A DNA stretch of 64,000 nt from Thermoplasmatales archaeon E-plasma (GCA_000496135.1 KI542674.1:124001-188000); one strand, 5' to 3'. Shown: positions 4,353 to 8,179, counted from the stretch's first letter. Program-made: numbers and translations. The notes: generated from the sequence alone by a model not told the origin.

Positions 4353-4462
4353 AATCGTCTTTTATCCACATTAATAATCCTATTATTTTTGAGATTTAGC
4401 AAATGTTGGATTTTTTTCAAAGCAATACCACAGGATTAATAATATGATTAAATCAGGGAGAG

Positions 4463-4744
4463 ATGAATTTAGAGGTTTTCGTCTCCATGAAAAGTTTGGC
4501 AAGCTCAAATACAACAATACAGGAAGTTTTCCAAAGAGGTTTCGAGGTTGTAATATCTGTATCGGCAATAATTATTGCACTCCTCTGGATACCAATTGCA
4601 CTGGGATTTTTCAGCTCTGATGAACAGAAGAGATATGATTCAAAAAACAGAGTCAAATATGCTGCACTGGGAACCATAATTTACATTTTGGCAATTAGCG
4701 GTTTCATCTACGGAATATTCAACTTTATAGCAACCGGGGCATAA
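4463..4744 (+). CDS. Two-TM small membrane protein, VirB2/CedA1-like pilin candidate
   Basis: A 93-residue protein with two hydrophobic helices (about residues 29-53, VVISVSAIIIALLWIPIALGF, and 68-90, ALGTIIYILAISGFIYGIF) joined by a short charged loop (SSDEQKRYDSKNRVK). This topology and size match VirB2-type pilins and the archaeal CedA1/TedC pilin subunits, in which the charged loop faces the cytoplasm or pilus lumen. It is the first gene of a four-gene set that ends in a VirB4-like ATPase; the next gene starts 3 bases after the stop. A GGGAG sits directly before the ATG. The function is inferred from topology and neighbours, not from sequence identity. Confidence 0.55.
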   Translation: MNLEVFVSMKSLASSNTTIQEVFQRGFEVVISVSAIIIALLWIPIALGFFSSDEQKRYDSKNRVKYAALGTIIYILAISGFIYGIFNFIATGA

Positions 4745-4747
4745 TCT

Positions 4748-5740
4748 GTGTCTTTCAACATAATCTCCTTCCTGTCTCCGCTGGGAAGCTTTTTGCTATC
4801 AGCAGAAATAGCATCTTCAGCAGGTTTATGGGAGCTTATTATAACTTACGGACTTGGACAACCCTACGCATTTCCATACTCCTCTTCAGATCTATCAATT
4901 ATAACACCCCTTTTTAAACATATCACAAATGAATTGGCAATTCCAATTTCTCTTCTGGCAATTTTTTTAAGTTCCATAAAAATAATAATGATAAGAAAAG
5001 GAGAAGATTTGAATAGAATATTCTGGAGGATGAGTCTGGGATTACTCCTGTTCTTTCTATCTCTGGATATAAGTAGATATATCCTTGAATTTTCATATCT
5101 TGTATTTAACAGCGTCTGGTCCTATGGCTCAATAAACTGGGTATCCTCAATGACCTCAAGTCAAATTTTGTCATATCTCGGTAACATGGCATCCGGAGGT
5201 AATACGCTTTCAGCGCTTCTTCTTTCTTCCGGATACTTCGCAGCAACATTCATACTTCTAAGTTTTCTAATGTTAAGAGATGCACTCCTCATAGTTTTCA
5301 TAATTTTGTTACCGCTGGTATCTTTGCTTATGGCTGTTACTGAGTTATATGAGAGAATGCTTCAATTGTGGGTCATGTTCATTGAACTGGCACTTATTCC
5401 GTTTCCCATTGCCATTGCCCTGTACCTGAGTTCTGTTTATTCAAACATATTTTTTATGCACCTTGCATTTCTATGGGCAGCCTGTCTAATTCCTTCCATA
5501 TTTATGACAAAGGGAGGGCTGTTTAGAAATCTCATGAGTTTGGATATCTTATCGGGCGTAAATCTTGTGGGAAATAGAATGCAATTGATCACAGACAGAC
5601 TGCCAAATGTTCATTTGGGGAATATCTCCATTGGTGGAGAACAAAATGGAATGGCAAACGGGAATAACCCCTATCAGATTAATATTAATGACCTGATGAA
5701 AAAAGATGTGGAATATAGAAGAACGATGTGGCAGGATTAG
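4748..5740 (+). CDS. Polytopic membrane protein, VirB6/CedA-like channel candidate
   Basis: A 330-residue integral membrane protein with about six to seven hydrophobic segments (near residues 10-30, 55-75, 90-120, 155-200 containing two, 210-235 and 240-260), then a hydrophilic Asn-rich tail of about 65 residues. Size and topology match VirB6/TrbL-type and CedA channel proteins that pair with a 2-TM pilin and a VirB4-like ATPase. The start is a GTG at 4748, 3 bases after the previous stop, so translation is probably coupled. No signature motif allows a family call by eye; the assignment rests on topology and gene order. Confidence 0.55.
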   Translation: MSFNIISFLSPLGSFLLSAEIASSAGLWELIITYGLGQPYAFPYSSSDLSIITPLFKHITNELAIPISLLAIFLSSIKIIMIRKGEDLNRIFWRMSLGLLLFFLSLDISRYILEFSYLVFNSVWSYGSINWVSSMTSSQILSYLGNMASGGNTLSALLLSSGYFAATFILLSFLMLRDALLIVFIILLPLVSLLMAVTELYERMLQLWVMFIELALIPFPIAIALYLSSVYSNIFFMHLAFLWAACLIPSIFMTKGGLFRNLMSLDILSGVNLVGNRMQLITDRLPNVHLGNISIGGEQNGMANGNNPYQININDLMKKDVEYRRTMWQD

Positions 5741-5867
5741 TATGTTCACATTACAGAATTGGAATGTTAACATGAAAGCCTTAAAAATCTTGATATATGC
5801 CCAGGGAGTGCAGATCAGCTGATGTTCTTACCTTATTATTGAAGAAAATCTATACCGGTTGAAATAA

Positions 5868-6557
5868 ATGCAAAAACAGGATGCTTTTGGAAATTTACCT
5901 CCCAATCTAAATCACAGGGAAAGAATGTCCTTGAATCCCAACCTGGATTTATATGTAATTGCAGTTGCTCTGTCTGCAATATTTCTGAATTTCAGCAATG
6001 ATTTCTTACCTTACATCGTGAGAATACCTGCAATTATCCTGGCCCTGGTTATTATTGCAGCAGTTTTATGTTCCATTTCAATAGCTAAATATATTAAAAT
6101 TCGGACAATCTCATTGAGCAAGAACTGTGAGAAGACAAACGTTAATACACTGATAATTGGCAGAAATACAGAAATGTCCGGCATAGAGGTGATTCCTGTA
6201 GAAATAGGGGCAATGACCCTGAGGGAACAGAACCTTTTCAAAAGTTCTCTTTCAAAGATATGGTCCAGAATGCCTGATGATTTGATACTTATATCAATGA
6301 ACTTCAACAATGTAGAAATTCCAGTAAAGAATGAAAATTCAGCAGTGGAATCATATTCCAGTATGTTAAGAAATCTTATGGGAAATACCTTCTACTTTAG
6401 ACACTTTATACTTATAAGAAATGCAAAGGGAATTGAAAGAAAGGGAAAACTCCAATCGGATTTGGATACCGTGCAGGAGCAGCTAGCCTCAATAGGCATG
6501 AAATTTAAGCAAATGGATACTTCACTTCTTGAAAAATTATGGGGGGAGTTCCCTTGA
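5868..6557 (+). CDS. Two-TM protein with VirB4 N-terminal-like cytoplasmic domain (PrgI/VirB3-like)
   Basis: A 229-residue protein. Residues about 27-80 form two membrane helices separated by a very short turn, the layout of VirB3/PrgI. The remaining about 145 residues are cytoplasmic alpha/beta (GIEVIPVEIGAMTLREQ, PDDLILISMNFNNVEIPV, FRHFILIRNAKG, LDTVQEQLASIGMKFKQMD) and resemble the domain that precedes the ATPase core in VirB4/TrbE proteins, where a long helix pair and 'fl.i...' strand recur. So the locus seems to carry a VirB3-like part fused to a VirB4 N-domain, with the motor on the next gene. It overlaps that gene by 19 bases. Confidence 0.5.
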   Translation: MQKQDAFGNLPPNLNHRERMSLNPNLDLYVIAVALSAIFLNFSNDFLPYIVRIPAIILALVIIAAVLCSISIAKYIKIRTISLSKNCEKTNVNTLIIGRNTEMSGIEVIPVEIGAMTLREQNLFKSSLSKIWSRMPDDLILISMNFNNVEIPVKNENSAVESYSSMLRNLMGNTFYFRHFILIRNAKGIERKGKLQSDLDTVQEQLASIGMKFKQMDTSLLEKLWGEFP

Positions 6558-7924
6558 AGAAAGCCCAAAAAAACCATGTTAAAGTGCGACTCCATAAAAC
6601 TTATTTTCAGTCGACAAGATTCAAATCACACATTCGTATTTCTGATTCCAAACCTGCAAACACTCTGGAAATTTCCCCATTGATAAATGGATTATCTATC
6701 CCCCTGGATATAATGTACTCACTGACCAGATTAAAAAAGGACAGCAAGACATTTGGAAGGATAAGAGCAGCCAAAAGAGCAAATCTCATGTCTGAGAGAA
6801 AAAAACATCCTCATAACCCTTCAAAGCGAATTATTGATGAGGAGAAATATGCAAGCAAAATTCATGAAATGAATTCCAGCGAGACCGGAGCGTTATATCA
6901 GGGAACATTCACAATATCACCTGGAAGCAATAATCCTGTAAAACTCAGAGAATATACGTTTAGAATACGAAATTCCCTGGAACTCATGGGAACAACCTTG
7001 AATCTTAAAGGGAAATTGACCAGATCCCACATGGAAAAACTGAATGCCTTTGATTTCCCAAAATCTGATAGATATCTCATCGACAGTGATTCATTGGTAA
7101 ACCTTATTCCATGGTTCACCGAATCGGTTCCTGATACTAATGGAGTGTTAATAGGACTTGACTCTTATTCAGGGAAGCCTGTCTTTTTAAATTTATGGTC
7201 AAAGCCATCATTTAACTCATTGATCCTTGGTGAAATAGGATCAGGAAAGAGCTACTTTACCAAGACCTTTCTTTTGAGGAATTTAGTACTCGATCTTGCT
7301 GATGAGATATATATTTTTGACCCCATGAATGAATATTTTGCCGGAAAAGACCTTACTTCATATTCTGATGTAGAAATAATATCCTTTGGTAATGATTTGA
7401 CGAACAAAAATTCATTTCGATCTGAAGCGAAAAAAAATAAAATGATTAAAATCTTTAGATTTGTGGAGGAGGCGAAGACCGAGGAAAATTTTCTCCTGTG
7501 CTTATCAGATATGCTCAATTTAATCAAAAATTCCGGTTCAAAGAGAAAACTGTTGATTTTGGATGAGGCACACCTTCTGCTTAGATCCAGTAAAACTATG
7601 AAATTATATGGAGAAATTGTAAGATCATCAAGGCACTATGTCACTTCAGTTATATCGATATCGCAGGGAATTGGTGAGTTTTTGTTAAGGCAGGGAGGAC
7701 AATCCATTTTTGAGAATTCAATAAACATTTTCATATTCAGAAATAAATTCTGGGAAGATCTTAAGACAGTGGCAATATCTCCGGAAAATTATGGGTACTT
7801 GGATTTTAAGAATCTATCTGGAGGAAAAGGTGAATCTTACTCTGAACTATTCTATTATACCAGCGGAAGTTTGAGAAAACTCACTTATATCTCAACAGAC
7901 TTTGAAAAAAATTTCATTGGGTAA
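6539..7924 (+). CDS. VirB4/CedB-like secretion or DNA-transport ATPase
   Basis: A 461-residue motor ATPase of the HerA-FtsK/VirB4 group. Residues about 1-100 are very basic. Walker A is GEIGSGKS (about 231-238), preceded by the VirB4-typical strand GKPVFLNLWSKPSFNSLILG; the Walker-A-proximal DPMNEY and the Walker B LLILDEAHLLL (about 337-347) follow, then SSRHYVTSVISISQG (sensor-like Gln) and a C-terminal strand. All core residues for ATP hydrolysis are present. No relaxase or coupling protein is nearby, so import or pilus function is more likely than conjugation. The start could be ATG 6539 or TTG 6554, both inside the preceding gene. Confidence 0.75.
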   Translation: MGGVPLKKAQKNHVKVRLHKTYFQSTRFKSHIRISDSKPANTLEISPLINGLSIPLDIMYSLTRLKKDSKTFGRIRAAKRANLMSERKKHPHNPSKRIIDEEKYASKIHEMNSSETGALYQGTFTISPGSNNPVKLREYTFRIRNSLELMGTTLNLKGKLTRSHMEKLNAFDFPKSDRYLIDSDSLVNLIPWFTESVPDTNGVLIGLDSYSGKPVFLNLWSKPSFNSLILGEIGSGKSYFTKTFLLRNLVLDLADEIYIFDPMNEYFAGKDLTSYSDVEIISFGNDLTNKNSFRSEAKKNKMIKIFRFVEEAKTEENFLLCLSDMLNLIKNSGSKRKLLILDEAHLLLRSSKTMKLYGEIVRSSRHYVTSVISISQGIGEFLLRQGGQSIFENSINIFIFRNKFWEDLKTVAISPENYGYLDFKNLSGGKGESYSELFYYTSGSLRKLTYISTDFEKNFIG

Positions 7925-7927
7925 AAT

Positions 7928-8179
7928 TTATCTTTTTACAGTAGAAATTCTCTTCTTCGTTTCACCAAGAATAATAGCCATTATGCCAAAGGCTAAGAGA
8001 ACAACTACAAGGGAATATAGTCCAGGATCAGTCCATGCATCAAAATATTCTGCCCACGCAAAATAATAAGAAAGCCCTGAAATAACAAAAAAAAGCCCTA
8101 TGGCAATTGTGGCGTTGTTATATGTGAATTTCGTCAGTATTCTCTGTAATTTTCCATTTGATGATTTTTCTGCTTCCAT
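7928..8179 (-). CDS. Small two-TM membrane protein
   Basis: An 83-residue protein with two hydrophobic helices (about 25-43 and 55-72) and charged termini (MEAEKSSNGK at the start, KKRISTVKR at the end). I do not recognise a family. It is convergent with the VirB4-like ATPase and ends 3 bases from its stop, so it is not part of that operon. A TATA-like AT run lies upstream on its strand (about 8195-8215). It may be lineage specific. Confidence 0.6.
   Translation of the reverse strand: MEAEKSSNGKLQRILTKFTYNNATIAIGLFFVISGLSYYFAWAEYFDAWTDPGLYSLVVVLLAFGIMAIILGETKKRISTVKR

Follow-up and report, generated by a model that had tools for sequence, protein, structure and literature searches.

A chromosomal, relaxase-free type IV secretion-type gene cassette as a candidate DNA-exchange machine of Thermoplasmatales

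Results

A four-gene cassette with conserved order

Four adjacent genes in the genome of the acidophilic Thermoplasmatales archaeon E-plasma encode a pilin (A1), a membrane protein (A) and a VirB4 ATPase that is spread over two polypeptides (N and B). From these parts, we infer with moderate confidence that the cassette forms the core of a chromosomal, relaxase-free machine of the type IV secretion system (T4SS) type that serves cell-to-cell DNA exchange.

The window analysed here comprises 64,000 nucleotides (KI542674.1:124001-188000). The cassette that a prior sequence-only reading had proposed is real: all four open reading frames lie on the plus strand, at the positions and with the junctions then given. 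A1 (4463-4744; 93 aa, two transmembrane (TM) segments) resembles VirB2 and T4SS pilins and is followed after three bases by A (4748-5740; 330 aa), a probable VirB6-like channel with six TM segments by hydropathy (6-7 TM). After 127 bases comes N (5868-6557; 229 aa), whose two TM segments form a hairpin ahead of a putative VirB4 N-terminal domain. N overlaps by 19 bases with B (6539-7924; 461 aa when read from 6539), the predicted VirB4 motor ATPase, in which both Walker motifs are intact (Walker A, GEIGSGKS, at 231; Walker B, KLLILDEAH, at 337). In both congeners checked, B and the stop codon of N share four bases (TTGA), which makes TTG 6554 the more likely start of B and 456 aa its probable length.

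Directly upstream of A1 lies a 19-bp AT-rich element, ATTAATAATATGATTAAAT (4435-4453, plus strand), which is probably the core promoter of the cassette. Its sequence does not vary among the three species of the genus for which the upstream region is available, and many other genera carry a TTTATA-like box ~30 bases before the ATG. No second copy was found in the window at up to three mismatches, the nearest matches elsewhere in the genome differ by three mismatches, and a regulon search with the element returned nothing above chance.

How widespread is this arrangement? A VirB4-like relative is present in 52 of 61 close genomes. In a scripted annotation of 32 family loci, 28 had the order A1-A-N-B or, with the last two genes fused, A1-A-NB, and the other four were interrupted by contig ends; a gene order that recurs to this extent makes the cassette more than a chance assembly. 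The A family occurs in 113 of 300 sampled genomes, including other families of the class, and one family outside the order also has the order pilin-A-N-B. The cassette is conserved across Thermoplasmatales and beyond.

The wider survey also brought up variants of the locus. In Aciduliprofundum-type relatives (L068:13826-18685, L067:13262-16035), the pilin domain is C-terminal in several tandem proteins of 320-589 aa, which look as if pilins bore extracellular domains. The I-plasma family has a second ATPase after the cassette (677-679 aa; best NCBIfam match CedB, 35.5 bits), together with a 215-aa gene (L112:8046-10723, L106:8046-10732, L108:8046-10723), an arrangement that recalls the CedB/CedD pair. 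One family outside the order encodes a giant protein of ~1,800 aa with four TM segments immediately before the pilin or channel gene (L180:526-5946, L182:7064-12352, L183:8015-13462). A contig filed under candidate division WOR-3 bacterium (L094) carries an archaeal-type cassette and is nested in the DHVE2 clade of the VirB4 tree; its filing is probably a binning error. A tentative identification of the f15 family as methanogens was dropped, as McrA was not found.

N and B together make up one VirB4

Profile searches place B among conjugative VirB4 proteins. With 84.7 bits for Mbov_0397 VirB4 and 66.7 bits for CD1110, its best NCBIfam matches stay under the equivalog cut-offs of 325-590, and all 40 B orthologs match the CD1110 and Mbov_0397 models (best E values 1e-64 and 1e-52, respectively). 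The best PDB match by sequence is a VirB4 (4ag5, E 4e-24), and the family B proteins are monophyletic (100/100). For N, profile searches gave nothing convincing, and its sequence could not be linked to solved structures.

The relation of N to B emerges from relatives in which both are a single protein: 18 of the 34 family members, and 15 loci among those surveyed. An AlphaFold2 model of one such fused ortholog (L088; pLDDT 87.9, pTM 0.86) retrieved VirB4 TrwK chains of R388 at all of PDB ranks 1-14 (best E 7e-26, TM ~0.5-0.6), with HerA entering only from rank 16. The 721 alignment columns on this 692-residue query suggest near full-length VirB4 coverage. On this modelling, N and B together are one VirB4, and the assignment of a VirB4 ATPase to the cassette is solid.

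The separate N-part had initially seemed unusual. The split is genuine, but neither unique nor a one-off: on the family tree, the two genes passed between the fused and the split state at least seven times (shuffled mean, 11.8). It also has a parallel in CedB and CedD, which between them contain different parts of the VirB4 N-domain (PMC11868833). Is N also the VirB3-like component? An hhalign comparison of its hairpin with a PrgI-containing set gave 6% probability, too weak to count. In other families of the order (L067, L068, L069, L090, L092), an extra protein of 95-139 aa with 2-3 TM segments is encoded between N and B, and is a better VirB3-like candidate than the N hairpin.

Pilin and channel candidate

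The assignment of A1 as a VirB2-type pilin is solid. Although A1 itself scores under the curated cut-off of the Pfam T4SS_pilin model (PF18895; 21.6 versus 26.6 bits), 33 of 34 A1 orthologs match this model at E<=0.01. Likewise, A1 reaches 27.4 bits against the NCBIfam conjugal pilin model Mbov_0395, derived from mycoplasma integrative and conjugative elements (ICEs; cut-off 40), which 29 of the 34 orthologs match at E<=0.1. About half of the A1 residues are identical across genera. A search of the PDB with the A1 sequence gave no pilin match. Pilin-channel homology has been reported for CedA1 and CedA (PMC9905601); between A1 and A, none was seen by hhalign.

Evidence on A is of a different kind. 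It has no match in Pfam or NCBIfam, its sequence provides no link to solved structures, and its AlphaFold2 model (pLDDT 77.5) found no significant match in the PDB. The best Foldseek matches among natural proteins are VirB6/TrwI of R388 (E 0.2-0.4, TM 0.30-0.32, probabilities 0.75-0.82), and operon position and the 6-7 TM segments point to VirB6 as well. Invariant residues R177 and P189 are in register with R284 and P296 of the clostridial genes that occupy the VirB6 position, while the hhalign probability for the same pair of families (13%) is too weak to count. VirB6 is the best natural structural match, but not a significant one, and A is likely, on weak support, a VirB6-like channel.

No known relaxase and an unlinked VirD4/HerA-type ATPase

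Relaxase profiles (PF03432 and PF08751) have no match in the whole E-plasma genome, and PF03432 is absent from all 36 other family members sampled. The sequence-only reading had noted neither relaxase, coupling protein nor integrase nearby. This holds within the window; just outside it, however, ~26 kb to the left of the cassette, lies a candidate coupling protein. This VirD4/HerA-type ATPase (G000:C2:100274-102208; L167:6272-8209, minus strand) is a stand-alone protein of 645 aa with no TM segment. It passes two coupling-protein models of Pfam (PF10412, 34.2 versus 20.5; PF12696, 22.3 versus 22.0), and NCBIfam is ambiguous among HerA, CedB/CedD and VirD4. In the C-terminal half, D470, E483, E485 and K498 are invariant in eight sequences, a D...ExE...K pattern that could mark a PD-(D/E)xK-like nuclease; a PDB search with the C-terminal domain gave no match. 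The gene adjoins a haem-oxygenase-like gene (PF14518), and in several genera the ATPase has genes of comparable length (208-233 aa) as neighbours.

A and the VirD4/HerA-type ATPase family occur together in 99 of the 300 genomes; 14 have A only, 16 the ATPase only and 171 neither. This co-occurrence is suggestive, and phylogenetically confounded by shared ancestry. At E 1e-10, the 14 cassette genomes (of 113) that miss the VirD4-like family include all seven sampled from one genus, and this ATPase is therefore not obligatory.

The same 14 genomes bear on an alternative reading, in which a relaxase-free T4SS would serve protein secretion or cell-cell contact instead of DNA transfer. In an ICE survey, VirB4 loci without a relaxase were classed as putative protein exporters (PMC3158045), and this treatment of MOBless T4SSs weighs against DNA exchange; Patescibacteria, moreover, keep a largely relaxase-less T4SS linked to epibiotic growth (PMC12102498). 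Yet the neighbours of the cassette in the family are housekeeping genes, with no candidate effector gene accompanying it, and the archaeal relatives whose function has been tested transfer DNA (PMC9905601, PMC11868833). Overall, we regard this alternative as unlikely.

Relation to Ced, Ted and conjugative elements

Which known system does the cassette resemble most? By profile, pilin and VirB4 find their best matches in MPF_FATA cores (mycoplasma ICE Mbov_0395/Mbov_0397 and the Clostridium CD1110 type), which share the order pilin, 6/7-TM protein, 2-TM protein and VirB4; in clostridial relatives, this reads pilin, VirB6-like, PrgI (PF12666, at the equivalent position) and VirB4. Unlike these elements, the cassette is chromosomal and vertically inherited, has neither a relaxase nor a surrounding element, scores under the equivalog cut-offs, and has its VirB4 either encoded as two polypeptides or joined to an N-terminal TM hairpin.

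In its way of working, the cassette would parallel Ced and Ted, the T4SS derivatives that move chromosomal DNA (PMC9905601, PMC11868833), being a domesticated T4SS core free of a relaxase. Ced of Sulfolobales likewise combines a pilin, a multi-TM channel and a VirB4-type ATPase, is relaxase-free and chromosomal, and distributes the VirB4 N-domain over two proteins (CedB and CedD; PMC11868833). Ted of Thermoproteales, a minimal T4SS of the pilin TedC, TedA and TedB (PMC9905601), is likened here by the published description of its parts. In contrast to Ced, where CedB and CedD are both ATPases, the cassette has one motor and a motor-less N-part; its genes form one operon, and a VirD4/HerA-type ATPase is usually present. 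Of the earlier proposal of a Ced/Ted-like machine, the T4SS-type, relaxase-free character was borne out; Ced membership by profile was not. B reaches 19.1 bits with the CedB model (cut-off 700), CedD fits just as poorly, and no NCBIfam model matches A. The CedB model is matched weakly by 35 of 40 B orthologs (best E 4e-13, far under the cut-off). By sequence, B is closer to the conjugation ATPases of Firmicutes and mycoplasmas than to CedB.

Could the cassette nonetheless be a one-way importer that acts on the recipient side only, as a true functional equivalent of Ced? The same three part types as in Ced and Ted, the resident nature of the gene set and the genomes that miss the VirD4-like ATPase would all fit. 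Against this stand the position of B outside the CedB and CedD models, the VirD4/HerA-type ATPase accompanying the cassette in most genomes, and the finding that CedE and CedA1 matter for export, too, in Saccharolobus (PMC11868833). We give this possibility about as little weight as protein secretion.

A resident, vertically inherited locus

The cassette is flanked by rpiA and by genes for a thioesterase, dihydroneopterin aldolase, an NTPase and Trm1-like, UbiA-like and GGGP-synthase-like proteins, as well as a small 2-TM gene, and these neighbours are kept in most genera (exceptions: four loci from three genera; L051, L055, L058, L060). The small 2-TM protein (83 aa; window 7928-8179, minus strand; dN/dS 0.047) is encoded convergently with B and beside the cassette in most genera; it may belong to the machine as a fifth part or simply lie next to it.

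A tree of A1, A and B from 18 genomes recovers all nine bipartitions that have at least 95% support in the flank-gene tree, with no strong conflict. Relative to the nearest relative, dN/dS is 0.035 for A1, 0.058 for A, 0.144 for N and 0.131 for B. Because the cassette tree agrees with the flank tree at every strong branch and the cassette genes are under purifying selection, we consider the cassette resident rather than mobile, in agreement with what its housekeeping flanks had suggested from the window. The genome has four integrases, the nearest ~232 kb from the cassette on the same contig; a scan of a phage collection and of viral_contigs found no relative, and plasmids gave only partial B matches, mostly around the Walker A region. 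While VirB4 and pilin are closest to ICE families, the vertical inheritance, conserved flanks and purifying selection, together with the missing relaxase, the distant integrase and the search results just given, make it very improbable that the cassette is the remnant or end of an ICE, plasmid or provirus, and the mobile-element reading was rejected.

Discussion

How might such a machine operate? In the DNA-exchange reading that we prefer, which would cover import, export or both, A1 subunits would build a conjugative-type pilus or conduit and A would provide the membrane channel. N would anchor the complex via its TM hairpin and contribute the outer N-domain of VirB4, with B as the motor, and the unlinked VirD4/HerA-type ATPase would probably feed or receive the DNA. 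The role of A as VirB6, DNA as the substrate, the joint action with the VirD4/HerA-type ATPase and a use in recombination or repair are, in this scheme, proposed rather than observed. Transfer by such a set of parts has a precedent in the Thermococcus plasmid pT33-3, for which a review describes conjugation by means of VirB4 and VirD4 in the absence of any known relaxase (PMC12857230). A more far-reaching version—a class-wide, vertically inherited, quasi-sexual DNA-exchange system of Thermoplasmata that arose apart from Ced and Ted, uses a two-polypeptide VirB4 and has, in place of a relaxase, an unlinked VirD4/HerA-type ATPase whose C-terminal domain is nuclease-like—is speculative, and we consider it possible but doubtful.

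Parts of this system have been listed before. The 2016 genome paper on Cuniculiplasma divulgatum assigns VirB4, a VirD4-family ATPase and three membrane proteins to type IV secretion (PMC5155288); most likely, CSP5_1185-1189 and the VirD4 CSP5_0791 are the orthologous cassette and ATPase, as genome G014 carries both at places that fit the gene numbers. That paper gives the parts in one sentence, without a proposal of DNA exchange, the split VirB4, synteny or distribution. The DNA-exchange function proposed here is deduced from the parts, and our literature searches found no earlier proposal of it for the Thermoplasmata cassette.

What would this mean for the organisms? Natural Ferroplasma populations recombine often (PMC2704941), and in the literature searched no DNA-transfer machine is named for Thermoplasmatales. 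The resident T4SS core described here is a testable candidate for one. It suggests that conjugation machines have been domesticated outside Crenarchaeota as well, and its natural two-part VirB4s should be useful for studying how VirB4 is constructed. Inherited like any other set of chromosomal genes, the cassette may give these archaea a permanent means of moving DNA between cells.
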